Assembly: GCA_017560825.1 (NCBI GenBank)
Contig: JAFZED010000068.1
Span: 1-64,000 of the forward strand
Direction of reading: 5' to 3'
DNA from: Bacteroidales bacterium
GTDB taxonomy: Bacteria > Bacteroidota > Bacteroidia > Bacteroidales > UBA932
DNA length: 64,000 nucleotides
In this document: piece by piece, positions 6,922-17,308 of the stretch
Position numbering within the stretch: position 1 is the first letter of the stretch
Layout: the number at the start of each line of letters is the position of its first letter
Translations under genes and position numbers: made by a program
The notes under the pieces: generated by a model
What the model was told of the DNA's origin: nothing
The model's database searches: none
Seen by the model: only the letters and a program-made list of their open reading frames with translations

Positions 6922-7209
6922 GCATATGCAGCCATTAACTTGATCTCAATCCACTACATTTTTCCCAAAATCAGGTTTATAATTCTTTAAAACAGCAATA
7001 TGCAGACTGTTTTATGCCCCTCAAAGTCTTCAAATAAACTCTACAATTCCTCTCATAACGGGATTTGACAGAATTGAAAATATGATAGATAAATGATTGA
7101 AATATAGTTATTTATGCTATGTGATGGGGTCGGGTGATTATCACCTCTACACCTTCCAACATTCCTCTACAAAGCAAAATATGCTATATTTGTTGCCTCA
7201 TTAATATAA
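6922..7209. other. AT-rich divergent intergenic region
   Basis: No gene seen. It separates the lipoprotein pair (minus) from the phosphate run (plus). TATATTTG at 7185-7192 is a plausible -7 box for the 7210 gene, although the matching -33 element is poor. Confidence 0.4.
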
Positions 7210-7869
7210 ATGTACAGAAAAATGTTCGGTCGCAAGAAGACAAACAAGCTTATAGATGATATTGACAGGTATTTTGACCTGTTGGATCAGTCAGTCCAGG
7301 TGTTCAAGGCTGGTGTAAAGAACTATCTGTATTCCAACGCTAACGAATTCAACGAGAATCTTATGCAGGTGTCGGCAATCGACAGTGATGCCGATGCCCT
7401 TCGCAGAGAGATTGAGAATGCGCTGTACACACAGACTACCCTGGTCCGTTCCAGGGGAGACATTATGCGTCTGTTCGAAAAGACCAGAAACATTATCGAT
7501 ATGCTCAATGACAGTCTGTTTCAGTTTGAGATCGAGACTCCTTTTGTCCCGTCTGAGCTTAATCCGGAGTTTATGAAGCTGACTGACTTCTCGACTTTGT
7601 CTGTAGAGGCTGTCGTACCTGCAGTCAAGGCATATTTCAAGACTCCTGAAACAGTACTTGATGAGATAAGCAGGACCTATTTCTATGGAAAGGAGGCTGT
7701 CAAGTACTCCCAGACAATCAAAAGGACAGTATTCCATAATATGCCTTCTCTCAAATTGAGTGAGAAGTTCCACCTCAGGTATTTTGCCCTTCATATCGAA
7801 AACCTTGCAAAAGGTGCTGAAAATGTTGCGGACCAGCTTGCCGTTATGGCTATGAGGAGAACCTTCTGA
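7210..7869 (+). CDS. DUF47 / PhoU-like phosphate transport accessory protein
   Basis: 219 residues, the usual length of DUF47 (TIGR00153) proteins, which form all-helical bundles like PhoU and normally accompany PiT phosphate permeases, modulating them from the cytoplasm. Visible family features: a short basic N-terminus (MFGRKKTNK), the central SDADALRREIENAL helix with the usual E/D-x2-AD core, then RSRGDIMRLFEKTRNIIDML and a C-terminal IENLAKGAENVADQL helix. A second ATG at 7222 is equally possible. The stop codon overlaps the next start (TGATG), so translation is coupled to the PiT-like/LuxR fusion, which puts the protein beside its expected partner. Confidence 0.75.
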   Translation: MYRKMFGRKKTNKLIDDIDRYFDLLDQSVQVFKAGVKNYLYSNANEFNENLMQVSAIDSDADALRREIENALYTQTTLVRSRGDIMRLFEKTRNIIDMLNDSLFQFEIETPFVPSELNPEFMKLTDFSTLSVEAVVPAVKAYFKTPETVLDEISRTYFYGKEAVKYSQTIKRTVFHNMPSLKLSEKFHLRYFALHIENLAKGAENVADQLAVMAMRRTF

Positions 7870-9497
7870 TGACCATCTTCTGTCTCATATTGCTCTTGTC
7901 GGTTATGACTCTCTGGTTCCTTGCCAGTGAGCCGGTAACCTTTTTCGGTATGTATATACCTACTTGCGCCTTAAGAGACAGAGACTTCAAGGGATTGTTT
8001 GTAATATGCCTTCTTCTCGGCCTGTTATGCGGTTATGGAGGATCGGTGCACAAATTGTTATATAATAATATAGGTATATATACGCTTGATTACATCGAGG
8101 TGCTGGTGATACTCATTTCATCATCAATCGTCCTGCTGGCATTGAACTTCTTTTCTGCAAGGGGCTCTGTCATATATGCAGTTCTTGGTGCTCTCTACGC
8201 TTCTTACGTCGCCGAGGGACACGCGCACCTTGCAGACTTGAGGTTTGCCATAGCCCTGCTCGCAGCGCCGCTTATGGCATTTGCCTTGTCTGCCCTTATC
8301 CGACTTCTGCTGCGCCTTGTCATCTCAAAGGCAAATGCCCATCTGATAACCCTTTCATACTATATGAGGTTTGCCGTTATAATCTCTATGATTCTTTCGA
8401 CTGTTGCCATAGGTTTGAATTGGGGAGGTATGATGTGCGGAATGGCGGATCTGATCCGGCCCTCTTCGCTCATTCCTGCTTTTCTTGTAACAGGAGCGGC
8501 ATTCCTTATATATATATGGAAAGGATGGGACGGACTTCACGAGTCCTCGACGCTGTTTTCCGAATTTTCGGTATATGCCGTCGTGTCAGTGGGGCTGTCT
8601 GTCGCTGTGACAATGCTCTTTTTCTCAATGGAGATCACAGCTTCATTCATAGGCCTTTGCCCTGTACCCCTTTCTGCATCTGTACTCGTGATGGCTTCAG
8701 TGGCAGGCGCTCAGTTTGCGCAGCGCACTCCATTGGTCGAAGGGGTTGAATACAGAATGCCTTTTATCACTATGTTCGCGGTACCGGCTGGAACATTTGT
8801 GCTGGCTTATCTTATGTTCCGTCTCATCGGCTCGACTCCTCAGGATGAGATGGTGAAGTTTACTGTCGTCACTGTGTCGGTGATTATTATGTTGTCGCTT
8901 CATTTCATAAGCTATCTGCGGAGTCTGGAGAATAGATCGAAGGCGACAGACAGGCTTGTGTATGCGCAGCAGAGGCAGATCTATGAACGCAGCAGGGCAC
9001 TCAGTGATATGGAACTGAAGGTTATCTTGTCTGAGAACAAGGCTCTTCACGATGCTGTCGAGATGAAAAGGCAGGAAGTGATGAACGTCGCACTGAGCAT
9101 AGTGGAGCAGAAGGAGTTTCTCGAATCCCTCAATGACAAGGTCAAGTTCCTTGCCCTGACTGATGATGTCAAGGAGAAGGACAGACTTACAGAGGAGCTG
9201 GGAATGGCGATAAGGCAGCGCCTGTCCTATGACCGTGATGTGGATTCGCAGTACTTCTACTCTCAGGCCGAGTCGCTTCACGAAGACTTCAACGCAAAGC
9301 TTTCTGAGAACTTCCCGCATCTGACACAGCAGGAAAAGCGCCTTGCCACACTGCTGAGACTGGGATTCTCATCAAAATATATAGCTACATTAATGAATAT
9401 AACCCCTAAAAGTGTCGAGATCAGCAGGTACAGATTGAGGCAGAAATTGGGGCTGGCAAAAGGGGATAATCTGGTGAATTTTATTAAATCCATATAG
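7869..9497 (+). CDS. PiT-permease-like membrane domain fused to LuxR-type regulator
   Basis: 542 residues. Residues 1-~350 hold about ten hydrophobic segments arranged as two halves. Each half has what looks like a worn PiT signature: ARGSVIYAVLGALYASYVA and VPLSASVLVMASVAGAQFA where permeases have P-x-STTH-x3-G, IALLAAPLMAFALSALIRLL where they have SPLLG, and GLNWGGMMCGMADL where they have GANDxANS. The Asn/Asp/Ser/Thr residues that coordinate phosphate and sodium are mostly lost. Residues ~355-460 are coiled coil; ~485-530 are a LuxR-type helix-turn-helix (LTQQEKRLATLLRLGFSSKY, then SVEISRYRLRQKLGL). So it is probably a membrane-anchored transcription factor with a transporter-derived sensor. 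Start overlaps the DUF47 stop. The PiT kinship is my reading of weak similarity; the membrane-plus-HTH structure is certain. Confidence 0.7.
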   Translation: MTIFCLILLLSVMTLWFLASEPVTFFGMYIPTCALRDRDFKGLFVICLLLGLLCGYGGSVHKLLYNNIGIYTLDYIEVLVILISSSIVLLALNFFSARGSVIYAVLGALYASYVAEGHAHLADLRFAIALLAAPLMAFALSALIRLLLRLVISKANAHLITLSYYMRFAVIISMILSTVAIGLNWGGMMCGMADLIRPSSLIPAFLVTGAAFLIYIWKGWDGLHESSTLFSEFSVYAVVSVGLSVAVTMLFFSMEITASFIGLCPVPLSASVLVMASVAGAQFAQRTPLVEGVEYRMPFITMFAVPAGTFVLAYLMFRLIGSTPQDEMVKFTVVTVSVIIMLSLHFISYLRSLENRSKATDRLVYAQQRQIYERSRALSDMELKVILSENKALHDAVEMKRQEVMNVALSIVEQKEFLESLNDKVKFLALTDDVKEKDRLTEELGMAIRQRLSYDRDVDSQYFYSQAESLHEDFNAKLSENFPHLTQQEKRLATLLRLGFSSKYIATLMNITPKSVEISRYRLRQKLGLAKGDNLVNFIKSI

Positions 9498-9527: not shown

Positions 9528-10925
9528 ATGAAAAAGGTATTTGTTTCGTTTTTCGCGCTGATCGCGTCGATCGCTGCGTTTGCTCAGGAGGCTGAAGTGA
9601 ACCAGTATGGACAGAAGGTGAATTCCTTACCTATTGATGCCACTGTTCAGGATGGTATCCTTGTGTTCCAGAACAAGGAAGCAAACTACAAGATGTGGTT
9701 CGATGTCCGTGTGCAGGGTGATGCTGCAGTATTCTTCGGTTATGACAAGAACCTTACCCAGATCGGTAACGGTATGCTTATGCGCCGTACCCGTTTCGCT
9801 GTAAAGGCTCAGCTTGACAAGAACTGGTATGGTGAGCTTGATACAGACTGGACAAGCGGTACTCCGGAGATCAAGGATGCTTATTTGGGATTTACAGGCG
9901 TAGACAACCTTGAAATCAAGATGGGTAACTTCAAAGAGAATTTCTCTATCCAGAGAAACACAACTTCACGTTATCTCCAGTTTATGGAGCGTCCTATGGT
10001 GACTTATCTTGCACCATCGCGTCATATGGGTATCAATTTCAAGTACTCTTTGCCTCATATCTGGGCAAGTGCAGGTGTGTTCGGTCCCGCTCTTGAAGAC
10101 GCTGAGGCAATGACTGCTTTCCAGGATGGCAACAAGGATTACGGTCTTAACTGCGGTCTTTCTTACACAGGTAAGCTCGTTTACCGTCCGATCAACAACA
10201 AGACCACTTCACTTCATATCGGTGCTGCGGCGTCTTACAGAAACCCTAAGACATCTTCTACAGACGGTTACAATGCAGTTCGTTACAGTACACGCAACAC
10301 CACAGGTGTGAACCGCAAGAAGTATATGGATACAGATGCAATCCAGTATCTCGATCACGAGCTTGCTTACACATTCGAGCTTGCAGGACACCACAAGGGC
10401 CTTCGTTGGGAAGCTGCTTACATTGCACGTAAGCCTTTCGTAGATGAGCAGAAGTACATCGACAAGAACGGTGAAGCTCCTAATATGCAGCAGGCGTGGG
10501 GCTGGTATGCTCAGGCTGGCTACCTTCTCTTTGGCGGAACTCAGAACTATGATGCAGGTGGAGCGAAGTACACTCGTACAAACAACGGTAAGGAGTGGGG
10601 AGACATCGAGCTCTGTGCACGTGTAGAGTACTGCGATCTTAACATCTCTAAGTATGTGATGGGTGGATCTGCTTATGCATACTCTCTCGGACTCAACTTC
10701 CACGTGACTAGAAATGTGAAGTTTGTTGTGAACTACCAGTACAATGACCAGGACATCTTTGCAAACGGAAAGGGAGCTCAGGACGGAAAGGACACAACAG
10801 CAAAGAAGCCTTACAGCACAGGATATGACAAGGACGGTAATGTAACCAAGTATCCAGGCGACATCGTAAGCGGTTCAGGTATTGATTACCATATGCTCGC
10901 TTGCCGTTTCCAGGTTGCATTCTAA
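9528..10925 (+). CDS. phosphate-selective porin O/P family protein
   Basis: 465 residues with a signal peptide ending AAFAQ. The mature part is beta-barrel with the OprO/OprP family pattern: NYKMWFDVRVQGDAAVFFG, MLMRRTRFAVKAQLDKNWYG, IKDAYLGF and KMGNFKENFSIQ near the N-terminus, and alternating strands ending in a terminal Phe (FQVAF), the normal barrel end. In Pseudomonas such trimeric porins pass phosphate or polyphosphate across the outer membrane. Here it follows the DUF47/PiT-like genes by 30 bases and precedes CYTH enzymes, which supports a phosphate or polyphosphate substrate. Codons are those of a well-expressed gene. The exact anion preference cannot be read from sequence. Confidence 0.85.
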   Translation: MKKVFVSFFALIASIAAFAQEAEVNQYGQKVNSLPIDATVQDGILVFQNKEANYKMWFDVRVQGDAAVFFGYDKNLTQIGNGMLMRRTRFAVKAQLDKNWYGELDTDWTSGTPEIKDAYLGFTGVDNLEIKMGNFKENFSIQRNTTSRYLQFMERPMVTYLAPSRHMGINFKYSLPHIWASAGVFGPALEDAEAMTAFQDGNKDYGLNCGLSYTGKLVYRPINNKTTSLHIGAAASYRNPKTSSTDGYNAVRYSTRNTTGVNRKKYMDTDAIQYLDHELAYTFELAGHHKGLRWEAAYIARKPFVDEQKYIDKNGEAPNMQQAWGWYAQAGYLLFGGTQNYDAGGAKYTRTNNGKEWGDIELCARVEYCDLNISKYVMGGSAYAYSLGLNFHVTRNVKFVVNYQYNDQDIFANGKGAQDGKDTTAKKPYSTGYDKDGNVTKYPGDIVSGSGIDYHMLACRFQVAF

Positions 10926-10975: not shown

Positions 10976-11605
10976 ATGAAAAAGTTTTTTGTATTCGCAG
11001 CTGCAGCTGCATTCGCACTTTGTGCTTGTGAAAAAGACACTCCAAAGGTAGACGGTAGCGGTGAAGGTGAAGGTAACAAGGAGCAGAAAGTTGCAGGTAT
11101 CGTCCTCAACGAGCTTTCAGGCGCTGACAAGTTCATCGAACTCTACAACACTACAGACGCAGAGGTTTCTCTCGAGGGCGTGTACATTGTAAAGTATGAC
11201 TCATCAAAGGATGGTGGAAAGAGCACAACTTGGACAGGTGCAGCAGGTATGAAGATCGCTGCTAACGGTTATGTTGTTCTTGAGAGCTCTGACCTTGCAG
11301 ATCCTGCTGAGGACGGTGATCCTAACTATGCATATGAGAGTGCAAACCACGTATTCAGGGGTGGTCTCTCAGGTAAGAAGAACGTGTTCATTGAACTCTA
11401 TAACAAGGATGACGAGAAACTCAGCGAGTTCAAGAGAGGTGAGGAAGGTGCAGGTTGGAACCAGGTGTCTGGCTTCAACAACGACAAGAAGCACACATTC
11501 TCACGCGTACCGAACGGAACAGGTGACTGGGCATATGCTGACCCTACTAAGGGCGCTGCAAACGGTGCAAAGACTGCTGACCTCGAGCACACTCCGGAAA
11601 TGTAA
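10976..11605 (+). CDS. lamin-tail-domain lipoprotein
   Basis: 209 residues with a lipoprotein signal (FALCAC, probable lipidated Cys18), a Gly/Glu/Lys linker, then one lamin-tail-type beta-sandwich from ~residue 37: GIVLNELSGADKFIELYNTT is the family's opening, followed by LEGVYIVKYD, NGYVVLESSDL and a closing FSRVPNGTGDW. In bacteria these domains bind or present partners on the cell surface and often accompany nucleases or phosphatases. No catalytic residues are evident. It lies 50 bases after the porin and 22 before the CYTH pair, so it may be a surface accessory to the porin; that is inference from position. Confidence 0.75.
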   Translation: MKKFFVFAAAAAFALCACEKDTPKVDGSGEGEGNKEQKVAGIVLNELSGADKFIELYNTTDAEVSLEGVYIVKYDSSKDGGKSTTWTGAAGMKIAANGYVVLESSDLADPAEDGDPNYAYESANHVFRGGLSGKKNVFIELYNKDDEKLSEFKRGEEGAGWNQVSGFNNDKKHTFSRVPNGTGDWAYADPTKGAANGAKTADLEHTPEM

Positions 11606-11627: not shown

Positions 11628-12266
11628 ATGGCAGAATTGAAAATCGGCGAGATCTCAAAGCCACGCTTTGAGTTCCGCTCATTCGGACAGTGCTTCTGCG
11701 AGGCACACAAGAGAATGGCTCGTCTTTCAGTTCCTGTACCTGAAAAGGTATGGGAGCGCGAAAGCGACGAGATCTACATCATCTCTCGCAAGAACGACAT
11801 CAACAACACCAAGATCCGCAACGGAAAGATGGACATCAAGACATATGTCCAGACTGTAGACGGCCTCGAGCAGTGGAACCCACTTATGAAGGGTGAGTTC
11901 CCAATCTCACGCGCAGTGCTTGAGGACGAGGTGTTCCCTGCATTTATGGTGGATATGCCTGCTCTTGACAAGGATGAGTACACTTACGAGGAGTTCATCG
12001 GTATGGTGAAGGCAAACCCTGATCTTGCAGCTGTACGCGTACACAAGCAGCGTTTCGGCTATATGGTGAACGACACTATCTGTGAGGTCGGAAACGTGCT
12101 CATCAACGGTGCAAAGATCGTTACCATCAACTCTGAGTCTACTGAGATTGAGGACATCAAGAAGACCATAGCAGACTGCGGTCTCGAGGGCGTTGAGAAC
12201 ATCAACTATCTCCAGGCTATCAAGCGTGTGATCGGTATGTCTGACAAACCACTTGCAAACGAGTAG
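11628..12266 (+). CDS. CYTH-related protein of unknown activity
   Basis: 212 residues, no signal peptide. It lacks the ExExK opening of the CYTH/triphosphate tunnel fold but keeps pieces resembling its later strands: a basic DINNTKIRNGKMDIKTYV segment (CYTH proteins have R-x-R and K-x-K pairs here), LEQWNPLMKGEFPI, then AVRVHKQRFGYMVN and CEVGNVLI. Its gene sits four bases before a clear CYTH gene. A diverged CYTH subunit or anion-binding partner is the most likely reading; I could not assign it to a named family with certainty. The context suggests a role with tri- or polyphosphate. Confidence 0.55.
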   Translation: MAELKIGEISKPRFEFRSFGQCFCEAHKRMARLSVPVPEKVWERESDEIYIISRKNDINNTKIRNGKMDIKTYVQTVDGLEQWNPLMKGEFPISRAVLEDEVFPAFMVDMPALDKDEYTYEEFIGMVKANPDLAAVRVHKQRFGYMVNDTICEVGNVLINGAKIVTINSESTEIEDIKKTIADCGLEGVENINYLQAIKRVIGMSDKPLANE

Positions 12267-12825: not shown

Positions 12826-14436
12826 ATGACCGAAAAGAACATCGATTTGCAGCAGGAACAGACATTCGACCCGCTGGATATGAATAATTATAAGGTGGAG
12901 AAGCTCCCAAAGATGGAGAAATCCGGCTTCGAGAAGTGGATGGCCCGCCTCGGCGGCCCTCTGGCAGTCCTTATATTCGTACTTATATATTGGGTGGTCG
13001 ACATCCCTTTGTTTGATAACCTTGATTTTTCCGGCCTTTCAAGCAAGGCTCAGGCAAGGTTGAATGTAATAGGTGAGGCTGCCTTCATCAGGGCTTGCTA
13101 CGGAATGCTGGCTATTTTCTGCGCTTCAATTATCCTTTGGATTACTGAGGCTGTTCAGAGCTATCTTACCTCGCTGCTGGTGATCTTGGGAGTCATTCTT
13201 TGTGGTGTGACGACTCAAAAAGATGCCTTTGCACAGCTGGGACACCCTGTGATGTGGCTCAACATCCTGTCTTTCGTCCTTGCAAGTATGCTGGTCAAGA
13301 CACGCGTAGCCAAGAGATTTGCCCTCTGGTTTGTCTTGAAGTTCGGTAAGAGTGCCTCAGGTATCTTCTTCAGTTTTCTTATAATCAATGTCGTATTGTC
13401 CCTCTTTATTTCAGCAACGACCGTCAAGGCGACAATACTCCTTCCTATATTTATGGTCGTAGCTGCGATCTTTGGAGCAAGTCAGGGCGAGCGCAACAAC
13501 TTCGGCCGCAACCTTGTGCTCCAGAATCTTTTCCAGATCAATATAGGTGCAAGTGCATTTATGACCGGCTCAGGTGCGAATCTTCTTGCTATCTCGCTCC
13601 TTACAGGTGCATATAGCTCAGTGAGCCTGATTTATTCGGATTGGCTGGTAGCTGCCTTCCCTCTTGCGATGATTCTTCTGCTCATCGGATGGTTTGTGGG
13701 AGTCAAGATAATATTCCCGCTCAAGCCTGAGGAAAAACAGCCTCAGATCCAGGGTGGAATGGAGCGTCTGCGTCAGGAACTCGAATCTATGGGCAAGATG
13801 ACTGTGGAAGAGTTCAAGTCTATAGCGATTTTCGTGGGAGTGCTCGTTCTGTGGGTGACAGAAAGCTGGCACGGCGTTTCTGCTGAGGTGGTTGTGCTCA
13901 TCGGTGCGATTGTAGCATTGATCCCTGGCATCGGTGTGGTCAAGTGGAATGATGTGGACATCCCTTGGCACCTTATGATATTCTCTGCCGGTGCATATGT
14001 CATCGGTTCGGGTCTTAATGCGACCGACCTTCCGTCTATGATCGTCGGTGCAGGTATGGACGCCCTGGGTATCACTGCCCAGACTCCATTCTTTGTTCTG
14101 TATCTCCTCCTTACAGGACTTATGCTTTTCAGTGCTCTGGTCTTCCAGTCGAAGAATATGAGAGCCCTGGTGTTTATCCCGATCGCTATCGGTGTAGAGC
14201 AGCAGTTCGGCCTTCCGCCGCTCTGCCTGTCTTTCCCGATCTCTCTTTTGATTGAACACGTTTACGTGCTGCCGTTCAACAGCAAGCCGGCGGCGCTGCT
14301 ATATACAACAAACCATTACAGCTGGAGTGACACCTTCAAGTTCGGTATCACTATGATGCTCATCGCTTGGGTTATGATTCTTGTGTGGGGTGAGACAGTG
14401 CTCCATTGGCTCGGTTACACACCAGGACTGTTCTAA
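12826..14436 (+). CDS. SLC13/DASS-family anion symporter
   Basis: 536 residues, about 12 hydrophobic segments after a 45-residue cytoplasmic N-terminus. Features of the divalent anion:sodium symporter family: the helix-break motif SATTVKATILLPI near residue 205 (canonical Ser-Asn-Thr replaced by Ser-Ala-Thr), TGSGANLLA near 252, and a second-half VFQSKNMRALVFIPIAIG. Members carry dicarboxylates, sulfate or phosphate; sequence alone does not tell which. Because the neighbours are a phosphate porin and a CYTH hydrolase, I favour phosphate or another small inorganic anion. The gene may be separately controlled by the hairpin before it. The next gene starts 16 bases downstream. Confidence 0.8.
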   Translation: MTEKNIDLQQEQTFDPLDMNNYKVEKLPKMEKSGFEKWMARLGGPLAVLIFVLIYWVVDIPLFDNLDFSGLSSKAQARLNVIGEAAFIRACYGMLAIFCASIILWITEAVQSYLTSLLVILGVILCGVTTQKDAFAQLGHPVMWLNILSFVLASMLVKTRVAKRFALWFVLKFGKSASGIFFSFLIINVVLSLFISATTVKATILLPIFMVVAAIFGASQGERNNFGRNLVLQNLFQINIGASAFMTGSGANLLAISLLTGAYSSVSLIYSDWLVAAFPLAMILLLIGWFVGVKIIFPLKPEEKQPQIQGGMERLRQELESMGKMTVEEFKSIAIFVGVLVLWVTESWHGVSAEVVVLIGAIVALIPGIGVVKWNDVDIPWHLMIFSAGAYVIGSGLNATDLPSMIVGAGMDALGITAQTPFFVLYLLLTGLMLFSALVFQSKNMRALVFIPIAIGVEQQFGLPPLCLSFPISLLIEHVYVLPFNSKPAALLYTTNHYSWSDTFKFGITMMLIAWVMILVWGETVLHWLGYTPGLF

Positions 14437-14451
14437 AAAATACCATCCTTT

Positions 14452-15912
14452 ATGATTTCCATCCAGGCAAAGAAACACGATAACTATTCTGTCGAATTCA
14501 AGTTCGGATTCAACTGTGCCGAAGGCAAGAAATGCGATGACTTCTCGGTCAACGCCTGGATATTCGTGCCTAACAGTCTGGGTGTCAATGCGGAGAACTA
14601 CGGCAAGAAGCAATTTTACAGGGATGTGAAGTCTAACGTGCGTCTGATTACTCCTGTCTATCTCCTCAGTGAGATAGCGCAGGAGGATTCATTGCCGCTG
14701 ATGTCGCTCCGCAATGCGATGGAAACTCTTCTGAGAAGTCAGACATCATCGGATGTGGAATCCTATGAGTACCATTTGAAGATGTTTGCCGCGATATTCA
14801 AGAGTTCCATCCGCAATCACTCCCAGCACATCCGCAGTGCGGGTAACATAGGCCTTGACAAGTATCTTGTAGATGATTATGTCAAGAGTATTGATGCTGT
14901 CCTGTCCAGATTCAGGATGATGTACCGTATCATAGATGTGCCGACAATAGATGAGAAGATCCGTTCGTACTTCAAGATGTGCGATGAATTTATGAGTCAC
15001 GTTGTCGCGATTCAGACAATACGCATCATCAAATCAATAGATTCCCTTCCCGCTGATGCGGATTTTTCGTATGCGAGGGAGGAGCTGGCTGCGCTGATAA
15101 GAAGAGAGCAGGACTATAAGAGCTGTCGTGGCTATGGGGTCCTTACTGATGACAGTGATCAGAATCGTCGACTGGTCTATCATCGTGGAATGTTGAAGAA
15201 ATTTATTGAGAGCGAGTTGTACATCAGGCTTGACAAGAAGAAGGATGGAGTGGCCGTGGAGCAGATTTACTATAGTATTGCGGCCGGAATAGCTATGATT
15301 TTCGCCACAGCTGTCGCCTGGATCACCCAGACCCGCTACGGAAATATCACCTGGCCACTGTTTGTTGCTCTTGTGGTAAGCTATATGCTTAAGGACCGTA
15401 TCAAGGAACTGATGAGGTACTATTTCGCTCATAAGTTAGGCAACAAGTACTATGACAATAAGGCTACAGTAACCATCGGTCACAAGCGCGTGGGCGAGAT
15501 CAAAGAAGGCTTTGACTTTATATCTTCCGCCAAACTTCCTGCTGAGGTGGAGAGACTTCGCCGTACATCCGCAGGTATAGATGAGGAGGTTAACATCGTA
15601 GAGGAGAAGGTTATGCTCTATAGAAAGCACGTTTATATAGATCAGGAGGCCTTGTCCGGCAATGATAATTATCCGATGCGTGGAATCAACGAGATTATGC
15701 GTCTGCATCTGACACGATTCTCTCTGAAGATGGACAATCCGGAGGTGCCGGTGGACACTTTGGACAGTCAGGGAAACATCAGGACTGTGCTGGTGGACAA
15801 GGTCTATTATATGAATGTCGTATTCAATTTCAAGCACGGCTCCGGATCGGAGTACCATCACTTCAAGATCGCAATGACTCGTGACGGCGTCCTAAGTGTT
15901 GACAGGATGTGA
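14452..15912 (+). CDS. unknown membrane protein at the end of the phosphate run
   Basis: 486 residues, not recognised. There is no signal peptide. An N-terminal beta-rich segment (~1-70) with KHDNYSVEFKFGF is followed by long helices (~75-270), two adjacent membrane segments (~278-315: YYSIAAGIAMIFATAVAW and ITWPLFVALVVSYML) with a KDR motif after them, and a C-terminal half rich in charged residues ending in two beta strands. It is probably an inner-membrane protein with both ends in the cytoplasm. The gene lies 16 bases after the SLC13 gene and is closed by a strong terminator, so it belongs to the same transcription unit. A link to polyphosphate or phosphate handling is positional inference only. 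Confidence 0.6.
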   Translation: MISIQAKKHDNYSVEFKFGFNCAEGKKCDDFSVNAWIFVPNSLGVNAENYGKKQFYRDVKSNVRLITPVYLLSEIAQEDSLPLMSLRNAMETLLRSQTSSDVESYEYHLKMFAAIFKSSIRNHSQHIRSAGNIGLDKYLVDDYVKSIDAVLSRFRMMYRIIDVPTIDEKIRSYFKMCDEFMSHVVAIQTIRIIKSIDSLPADADFSYAREELAALIRREQDYKSCRGYGVLTDDSDQNRRLVYHRGMLKKFIESELYIRLDKKKDGVAVEQIYYSIAAGIAMIFATAVAWITQTRYGNITWPLFVALVVSYMLKDRIKELMRYYFAHKLGNKYYDNKATVTIGHKRVGEIKEGFDFISSAKLPAEVERLRRTSAGIDEEVNIVEEKVMLYRKHVYIDQEALSGNDNYPMRGINEIMRLHLTRFSLKMDNPEVPVDTLDSQGNIRTVLVDKVYYMNVVFNFKHGSGSEYHHFKIAMTRDGVLSVDRM

Positions 15913-15918
15913 TTTATG

Positions 15919-15942
15919 ACCGCTATTTTTAGCGGTTTTTTT
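15919..15942 (+). terminator. strong rho-independent terminator
   Basis: ACCGCT (15919-15924), loop ATTTTT, AGCGGT (15931-15936), then seven T. It closes the run that begins at 7210. Confidence 0.85.
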
Positions 15943-16105: not shown

Positions 16106-17308
16106 ATGATGAAACGACTGTTTATGATTGCCGTAGCGTTACTCACATTGGGTAGCGTTGCGAATGCGCAGCAGAGTATGAGCGACGAGTCTCTTGAGTT
16201 CCGTCCTCATTGGAGTCTTGGTGTGCAGGGTGGAGCAGGCTACACTATCGGTGAGGCTGCTTTCGCGAAGCTCCTCTCTCCAGCAGCTCAGCTGTCAGCA
16301 TCTTACCACTTCCACCACGCGTTCGGAGTACGCGCAGGTCTTAGTGGTTGGCAGGGCAAAGGTGGCCTTGTAGTGTCAGAAGACATCTACAGATTCCAGT
16401 ATGGCCAGCTTAGCGCAGACTTTACAGTGGATCTCGCAAGCCTCATCGCAGGCTTTGACCACCAGAGAGTCTTCAGCCCTTATCTTTTTGCCGGTATCGG
16501 CGGAGCTTATGGTTTCAATAATGAGGAGGCAACTGCACTTGCAGGCAAGTATTCAGTGGCTTTCCCTTACATTTGGGACAAGAAAGCTTTTGTCGTAGGC
16601 CGTCTTGGTGCTGGTGTTGACTTTTGGTTGACCAAGGCTATCGCTCTTGGTATCGAGGGTAACGCCAATATGTTCTCTGACAAACTTAACTCAAAGGAAG
16701 CAGGTAAGGGTCTCCTCGCTGACTGGCAGTTCGACCTCCTCGCAGGTGTGAAGTTCCGTCTTGGTGACAACACCCGTCCATCTGCTGTATACGCTGCACA
16801 GGTTGCTGCTGCTGAGGCTGCTGCTGCCGCTGCTGCTGCTCTTGCTGCTGAGAAGGCTGCCGCTGAGAAGGCTGCTGCTGAGAAGGCTGCCGCTGAGAAG
16901 GCTGCTGCTGAGAAGGCCGCTGCTGAGAAGGCTGCTGCTGAGAAGGCCGCTGCTGAGAAGGCTGCTGCTGAGAAGGCTGCTGTTGCTGCTGAGAACTCAG
17001 AGGATGTATTCTTCACAATCGACTCTTACTATATCCGTGCAAACGAGGGCAAGAAGCTTGAGAAGCTCGCTGCTTGGATGAAGGAGAATCCTGACTTCAC
17101 TGTAACACTCGTTGGTTACGCTGACAAGAAGACTGGTACATACGAGATCAACCAGAGAATCTCTGAGCGCCGTGCAAACGCTGTTAAGGAGAGACTCGTT
17201 AAGCTTGGTGTTCCTGCTGACAGAATTATGACATTCTTCAAGGGTGACACAGTTCAGCCATTCGCTGAGAACGCTAAGAACCGTGTTGTAATCTGTGAAC
17301 TCGAGTAA
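16106..17308 (+). CDS. OmpA-family outer-membrane protein with Ala-Glu-Lys repeat linker
   Basis: 400 residues. Signal peptide ends ANAQ; two ATGs are adjacent (16106, 16109). Residues ~28-222 form an eight-strand-type barrel (HWSLGVQGGAGYTIG, YLFAGIGGAYGF, GAGVDFWLTK). Residues ~228-295 are an Ala-rich helical linker containing nine AAEKA units. Residues ~300-400 are an OmpA C-terminal peptidoglycan-binding domain: FTIDSYYIRANEGKKLEKLA, the GYADKKTGTYEINQRISERR segment with the conserved Asp and Arg, and VKERLVKLGVPADRI. The protein ties the outer membrane to the cell wall. Codon choice is strongly biased, as expected for an abundant protein. The next gene starts 43 bases on with no terminator between. 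Confidence 0.85.
   Translation: MMKRLFMIAVALLTLGSVANAQQSMSDESLEFRPHWSLGVQGGAGYTIGEAAFAKLLSPAAQLSASYHFHHAFGVRAGLSGWQGKGGLVVSEDIYRFQYGQLSADFTVDLASLIAGFDHQRVFSPYLFAGIGGAYGFNNEEATALAGKYSVAFPYIWDKKAFVVGRLGAGVDFWLTKAIALGIEGNANMFSDKLNSKEAGKGLLADWQFDLLAGVKFRLGDNTRPSAVYAAQVAAAEAAAAAAAALAAEKAAAEKAAAEKAAAEKAAAEKAAAEKAAAEKAAAEKAAAEKAAVAAENSEDVFFTIDSYYIRANEGKKLEKLAAWMKENPDFTVTLVGYADKKTGTYEINQRISERRANAVKERLVKLGVPADRIMTFFKGDTVQPFAENAKNRVVICELE
16845..16983 (+). repeat. 15-bp tandem repeat within the ompA-like gene
   Basis: Nine units of GCTGCYGAGAAGGCY, each encoding AAEKA. The only variation is synonymous (GCT/GCC at two places), so the array can change by whole units without breaking the frame. Confidence 0.85.

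Follow-up and report, generated by a model that had tools for sequence, protein, structure and literature searches.

A PiT-derived membrane protein with a LuxR-type DNA-binding domain, encoded beside DUF47 in a Bacteroidales operon: a likely phosphate sensor

The locus and its genes

This report concerns a putative membrane-bound regulator encoded in a 64,000-nucleotide (nt) stretch of DNA from a Bacteroidales bacterium (contig JAFZED010000068.1, assembly GCA_017560825.1), called here the window. Between 7.2 and 15.9 kb the window carries eight co-directional genes, from DUF47 to orf486 (open reading frame (ORF) list, Pfam), the second of which encodes the regulator, a membrane protein ending in a LuxR-type helix-turn-helix (HTH); orf486 is probably the final gene of the operon (Table 1). 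A sequence-only reading of the same DNA had described a DUF47 gene overlapping, as TGATG, a 542-residue protein. Both ORFs (7210-7869 and 7869-9497) exist and overlap in this way, and the DUF47 product, which adjoins the PiT-derived gene, matches DUF47/PhoU_div (PF01865) with 45.7 bits vs. a cut-off of 24.4. The gene thus stands, but its start is probably 7222 and not 7210, as the DUF47 proteins of relatives begin four residues later (215 amino acids, aa). Five proteins of the operon gave no match in PADLOC. The nearest named records are Bacteroidales assemblies, and 20 of 21 loci originate from the ruminant hindgut.

Table 1. Features of the operon and its upstream region in the window
Feature	Position	Strand	Basis or remark
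Candidate operator, tandem CTCTACA-ATTC-CTCT (two repeats at an 11-nt interval)	7039..7053	+	not of the strict form
Single CTCTACA box	7145..7151	+	
Promoter-proximal CTCTACA box	7165..7171	+	13 nt upstream of the -7 box
Bacteroidota-type -7 promoter box TATATTTG	7185..7192	+	consensus TAnnTTTG
DUF47/PhoU_div gene (PF01865)	7222..7869	+	Pfam, relatives' starts; frame open from 7210
PiT-derived membrane LuxR regulator, 542 aa	7869..9497	+	ORF, profile-profile comparison, model vs. solved structure
Regulator membrane domain, residues 1-325	7869..8843	+	PiT fold, altered motifs (E21, Y103), N184 and P267 retained
Regulator long helices/coiled coil, residues 324-470	8838..9278	+	predicted model
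Regulator LuxR-type HTH, residues 485-531	9321..9461	+	Pfam GerE
OprO/P porin (PF07396)	9528..10925	+	Pfam, relatives' loci
Lamin-tail-domain (LTD) lipoprotein-like protein	10976..11605	+	Pfam, relatives' loci
orf212, without Pfam family	11628..12266	+	96-98% identity in close relatives
CYTH-domain protein, 157 aa	12271..12744	+	Pfam, relatives' loci; ORF listed from 12253
SLC13/DASS-family anion symporter	12826..14436	+	Pfam, relatives' loci
orf486, without family match	14452..15912	+	family searches, relatives' loci
Terminator-like hairpin with T run, 6 nt 3' of orf486	15918..15937	+	9 such sites in the region vs. 7.2 expected by chance

The regulator joins a PiT fold to a LuxR-type domain

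The HTH of the regulator (GerE/LuxR) scores 28.7 bits vs. a Pfam cut-off of 23.5, no other Pfam family exceeding its cut-off in the window protein, and is matched in all 76 regulator relatives at E ≤ 0.01. In the predicted model, residues 1-325 form ten helices of at least 15 residues, with broken, re-entrant-like places near residues 95-100 and 261-269, and the long helices 324-430 and 434-470 follow the membrane part. The build read earlier from the letters (about ten membrane segments, a coiled coil and a LuxR domain) is thereby borne out.

The sequence-only reading had further taken the membrane part for a decayed PiT permease. Profile-profile comparison aligned residues 20-315 end to end with PiT, the SLC13 control being negative, and the predicted fold agrees with the solved PiT structure (TmPiT, 6L85). 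A search of solved structures reached 6L85 at E 0.018 with a 32-row alignment and at 4.1e-5 with a 76-row alignment; the single regulator sequence returned HTH and sigma-factor chains only. PF01384 was matched in 41 of the 76 relatives at E ≤ 0.01. These comparisons of profiles and predicted fold, which the sequence-only reading had itself proposed as checks, confirm that the membrane domain is homologous to PiT/SLC20 permeases (PF01384). Compared with these permeases, the regulator shares the fold, has most hallmark residues changed, is fused to a coiled coil and a LuxR HTH, and is least conserved in its membrane half.

Transporter folds serve as sensors in UhpC, the Amt-histidine kinases and CbrA, where, unlike here, the output is a kinase; to our knowledge, none of these or similar systems combines a PiT fold with a DNA-binding domain of its own. 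In the open-licence literature nothing relevant to this PiT-LuxR fusion was found. A similar layout is that of DadR, HcdR and CadR from Eggerthella lenta, described as LuxR one-component activators with 10-12 transmembrane segments, several of them encoded near their targets (PMC9734109). The likeness to our regulator (ten N-terminal helices in the predicted model, a C-terminal LuxR HTH) is one of layout; these proteins belong to another phylum and respond to catechols, in contrast to the phosphate proposed here, and the words "transporter" and "major facilitator" do not occur in the text on them (PMC9734109).

As side observations, the regulators of two relatives, L078 (415 aa) and L079 (439 aa), are called without roughly 75 residues at the N-terminus, and a regulator fragment (residues 266-484, L071) lies on a contig labelled Burkholderiaceae, probably through a binning error. 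This partial match was left out of the alignments, and L062 was dropped as a near-copy of L061.

Intact fusions occupy the same place in other Bacteroidales

The operon was surveyed in the order with orf212 as the anchor, which was found in 34 of 247 genomes at E ≤ 0.001. Thirty regions were examined (29 fetched, plus L091, the same as G051); the own genome and the weak partial matches G075, G118 and G222 were left out. In ten regions a fusion of 577-624 aa, comprising a full PiT, a coiled coil and an HTH, lies between DUF47 and the porin, and in one more (L146) an intact fusion is split in two frames. One region (L091) has a PiT without HTH, two (L126 and L142) have a degenerate regulator resembling that of the window, and two (L144 and L148) a short LuxR protein before the porin. 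No regulator stands directly before the porin in six (L123, L124, L125, L127, L133 and L140, the last with only 1.7 kb of sequence before the porin). One (L143) shows an HTH fragment only, at a contig end, and seven (L128, L130, L131, L145, L149, L150 and L151) were not assessable owing to contig ends, broken frames or the lack of a porin.

By Pfam, the L138 fusion matches PHO4 at 1.4e-55 and GerE at 1.4e-4, just below the cut-off. Among the protein-search matches listed there are 120 fusions, some of them named "inorganic phosphate transporter" (Bacteroidales and Lentimicrobium records), and both profiles built here, for PiT and for the coil/HTH part, match every one of them as well as the ten loci. 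A sample of 198 genomes across the phylum gave matches to the PiT half alone (six genomes at E ≤ 1e-40, the widest match covering residues 3-406 of 581), so the fusion was seen only within the order.

A tree built from the coil/HTH part unites 26 of the 27 window-type rows in one clade (98/98). This is nested in a larger clade (100/100) that includes 15 of the 17 intact fusions and excludes all six other LuxRs. L142 stands apart, joined to the intact L139 on long branches, and the intact L134 is placed with the other LuxRs, both placements being weak or long-branch. The transport site probably decayed separately in L142; the long branches joining it to L139 leave this second decay probable rather than sure.

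In operons that lack DUF47, the position immediately before the porin is taken by the short LuxRs L144:11704-12342 (212 aa, with a hydrophobic N-terminal stretch) and L148:10755-11222 (155 aa, without it), which represent a regulator of another build. The idea that they are fusions minus the membrane part was given up, as the tree does not group them with the fusions.

The transport site is worn and the constraint inverted

The joint alignment held 130 intact rows (mostly top matches to L138, with three repeats among them), 76 window-type rows and 14 plain PiTs, numbered after L138; the substrate site was judged by motif positions, not by exact phosphate ligands. The GAND motif of the first half is near-invariant in intact rows (N20 in 129, D21 and N24 in all 130), whereas in window-type rows D21 is replaced by E in 61 and kept in 15, and N24 is kept in 0 of 76. 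The HP1 motif P-V-S-T-S-Q is equally firm in intact rows (P 129, S97 129, Q 128); window-type rows have P in none, S97 in 42, and Y (67), F (7) or L (2) at the Q/H position. In the second half, N183, N184 and N187 of GAN are each present in 130/130 intact rows vs. 75/76 for N183 and 13/76 for N184 in the window type, where the N187 columns are gapped and an ungapped reading (window residue 188) shows no N. The residues of HP2 (P-V-S-S-T-Q) occur in 126-130 of the intact rows; the window type keeps P in 74 and S286 in 60, and Q in none. Framework glycines and alanines are retained. The worn STTH- and GAND-like places of the sequence-only reading are therefore real in the joint alignment, with intact-PiT fusions in the same operon elsewhere, and in the window regulator itself intact GAND and STTH/STTQ motifs are not present in both halves.

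Identity is distributed in opposite ways in the two types. Among window-type regulators it is.306 in the membrane part vs..603 in the coil plus HTH, the membrane part being lower in 2850/2850 pairs; among intact ones it is.731 vs..547, with the membrane part higher in 8273/8385 pairs. The loci alone give.663 vs..491 for eight intact fusions and.474 vs..823 for 13 of the window type. In these alignments the constraint is inverted: in the window type the membrane half is the least conserved part and the HTH part the best conserved. The membrane part nevertheless remains under purifying selection, judging from ratios of nonsynonymous to synonymous substitution (dN/dS) of.12-.18 in three close pairs; a fourth pair, near saturation, gave.34, and the other 74 of the 78 pairs computed had no usable dS.

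This selection, together with the PiT fold kept in the model, the retention of N184 (75/76), P267 (74/76) and framework glycines in window numbering, and the existence of intact fusions, could mean that the regulator still transports as well as regulates, as a transceptor proper whose substrate site has changed. We consider this improbable: changes are seen in 76/76 relatives at N24, in the first proline-S-T-x-Q/H motif and at the Q/H of the second one, and in most relatives at the D/N that follows N184; constraint is weakest in the membrane half; L078 and L079 are called without its beginning; and another importer is present in every same-genus genome with the regulator (see below).

DUF47 accompanies the PiT-type domain

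DUF47 lies directly upstream of the regulator in 29 of 30 window-type loci, the exception being the partial match L071, so that the pairing is not fortuitous. Counting ORFs of at least 100 aa in the fetched regions, it is present in 14/14 operons with a PiT-type membrane domain and in 0/8 assessable operons without one. Identity of the window DUF47 is 38-51% with its counterparts at nine intact fusions, 28% with the L142 protein, and 17% with a DUF47 that neighbours a canonical PiT in a same-genus genome. By gene content, DUF47 is thus co-inherited with the PiT-type membrane domain, and it and the OprO/P porin proved to be constant neighbours of the regulator.

In Staphylococcus aureus, PhoPR is kept in check by accessory regulators, including PitR, that act together with their cognate carriers (PMC13170248). 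With PitR taken as DUF47, a role as modulator of the regulator is plausible for the DUF47 protein of the window. The PitR-PitA-PhoPR circuit resembles our operon in encoding a PhoU-like partner with a PiT protein; its output is a separate two-component system (PMC13170248), in contrast to the DNA-binding domain carried here by the PiT protein itself.

A CTCTACA element precedes the operon

Upstream of the operon, two elements recur across loci: a tandem CTCTACA-N4-CTCT, 172-197 nt before the DUF47 start, and a single CTCTACA box, 13-14 nt before TAnnTTTG. The tandem occurs within 300 nt upstream in 18 of 21 loci of the window clade and in five of the six sister-branch loci; in shuffled upstream sequences the count is about 0. 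The three window-clade loci without a counted tandem are L061, with only 108 nt upstream, and L063 and L068, which carry an extra first gene; in these two, both CTCTACA elements lie upstream of that gene (a lipoprotein gene), the proximal box of L068 overlapping the called start. The strict tandem CTCTACAN4CTCTANA has seven matches in 61 genomes, six of them upstream of the regulator operon: in G016, G020, G022, G023 and G033 it lies 128-208 nt before DUF47, and in G017 28 nt before a longer DUF47 frame, as called. The seventh match is at a contig end in G055. The proximal pattern is found a single time in the own genome, where its control gives 0.

The proximal box takes the place expected of a -33 element, judging from the Bacteroides consensus. 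Its position suggests that the regulator would act as an activator, as DadR, HcdR and CadR are. Taken with the tandem, it suggests self-control of the operon via the candidate operator.

Seven-bp repeats 4 bp apart also reproduce the generally known geometry of the E. coli Pho box, and the operon might belong to a PhoR-PhoB regulon, with CTCTACA as the Bacteroidales Pho box and the fusion acting elsewhere or only modulating. In Bacteroides fragilis, which has PhoRB, the targets of PhoB include Pst and a putative phosphate/sulphate permease (PMC3547664). We regard this explanation as unlikely, given that six of the seven strict tandems lie at the regulator operon, that in the own genome the loose tandem is matched 3 times vs. 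5 in the control, never on the NptA contig, and that none of six regulator-less porin operons has the tandem, though chance, too, predicts about none there.

Other phosphate importers and the nature of the signal

Thirteen of the 37 same-genus genomes searched, the own included, carry the regulator. Twelve of them have an NptA-type carrier and the thirteenth (G023) a canonical PiT; another importer wherever the regulator occurs fits what a sensor would require. The own genome, 77% complete, has no PF01384 match at E ≤ 0.001. The PstB profile found some ABC match in 61/61 genomes and exceeded its cut-off in ten, among them none of the same genus (nearest G013, 314 vs. 343 bits), so that Pst looks absent from the own genome at this completeness. 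Separately, open frames of 955-977 aa with PF01384 matches, longer than the usual PiT, were seen in G058:C65 and G047:C38, and a 750-aa PiT class is common in the order.

A PiT-derived regulator might instead read sulfate, a dicarboxylate or the state of DUF47 only. PiT relatives include sulfate carriers, SLC13/DASS members carry dicarboxylates or sulfate by their family names, and the substrate-site residues are altered. The porin family, on the other hand, is named phosphate-selective, CYTH proteins are known to act on triphosphates, some relatives have a phytase-like/SdiA-regulated lipoprotein in the operon, and PitR, taken as DUF47, works with phosphate carriers in S. aureus (PMC13170248). 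On balance, a signal other than phosphate seems rather unlikely.

Proposed mechanism

We favour, with a probability of about 0.6, the reading that the regulator is a membrane-held phosphate sensor which, with DUF47 as its partner, switches on its own operon through the upstream CTCTACA sites. Loss of transport, phosphate as the signal, modulation by DUF47 and control of the following genes are points that we infer, with indirect support from the inversion of constraint, the co-inheritance of DUF47 and the conserved candidate operator.

In an ancestor within the Bacteroidales, an intact PiT would have been fused to a coiled-coil/HTH module while lying between DUF47 and the porin gene, and such a fusion could combine transport with signalling. 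In the lineage of the window the transport site would then have decayed and the HTH part become the best-conserved one, so that the sensor remained. Phosphate, or its passage via other importers as read by DUF47, may determine which conformation the PiT-like body adopts; two subunits would be paired through the coiled coil, and the HTH pair would bind the CTCTACA repeats beside the -7 box and recruit RNA polymerase, thereby activating DUF47-regulator-porin-LTD-orf212-CYTH-SLC13-orf486.

Several points weigh against this picture. As for the operator, the tandem is found in 0/11 operons of the intact kind (ten fusions and the split L146; a single CTCTACA in five), it is absent before L126, L142 and L079 despite their window-type regulator (0/6 in the group of other operons to which these three belong), and L072 has a single box only. 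The reversed control of the strict tandem gave 45 matches, 35 of them in G055, so that seven is not above control and it is the placement of the tandem, not its number, that counts. The proximal pattern alone is not specific (26 matches in 61 genomes, five at the regulator operon; control 14). Pairs of LuxR-type HTHs usually read inverted repeats; since the element is a direct repeat with a Pho-box-like 7+4 spacing, another protein, namely PhoB, may bind it. As for descent, the window regulator alone has no PF01384 match in Pfam up to E 1, the intact L134 and L139 fall outside the main tree clade, and the tree keeps the short LuxRs of L144 and L148 apart from the fusions. As for the ligand, phosphate rests on the neighbouring genes, because PiT relatives also carry sulfate. 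Finally, that PitR belongs to the DUF47 family is our own identification, the name DUF47 being absent from the text of PMC13170248.

The regulator belongs among the membrane-bound LuxR regulators, and is unusual in that a series from intact to degenerate can be read in one syntenic operon. More tentatively, and at somewhat less than even odds, there may be a Bacteroidales family of PiT permeases wired to the genome, leading from an intact PiT-LuxR transceptor, by loss of transport in the lineage of the window, to a dedicated one-component phosphate receptor with DUF47 as the phosphate-reading subunit and a private tandem operator, which would take the role of PhoR-PhoB at one operon. How bacteria read phosphate from their importers remains under discussion (PMC13170248). 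An importer fold and a DNA-binding domain in one chain would, if the reading is right, offer a direct route from the fold of a pump to DNA, and would make it possible to study how a signal passes from a PiT fold and DUF47 to DNA with no kinase involved. A DNA-binding domain is present in some Bacteroidales proteins deposited as "inorganic phosphate transporter", which probably act as regulators as well.

Further observations on the operon and its surroundings

An SdiA-regulated/phytase-like lipoprotein is the first operon gene at L063:6585-7340 and L068:6502-7335 (Pfam checked for L063), and a similar-looking lipoprotein gene lies between LTD and orf212 in L128, L129, L139 and L144 (Pfam checked for L129). 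The 212-aa product of orf212 is 96-98% identical between species whose regulators share only 48-59%; its sequence is held very tightly by some constraint, and in some genomes a second, divergent copy adjoins the first. The idea that orf212 is a twin of the CYTH protein was dropped (predicted model pLDDT 40, CYTH profile comparison 0.2%). Beyond the operon, at 16106-17308, a translation read by eye shows a long AEKAA-type repeat run, followed by an OmpA-like C-terminus.
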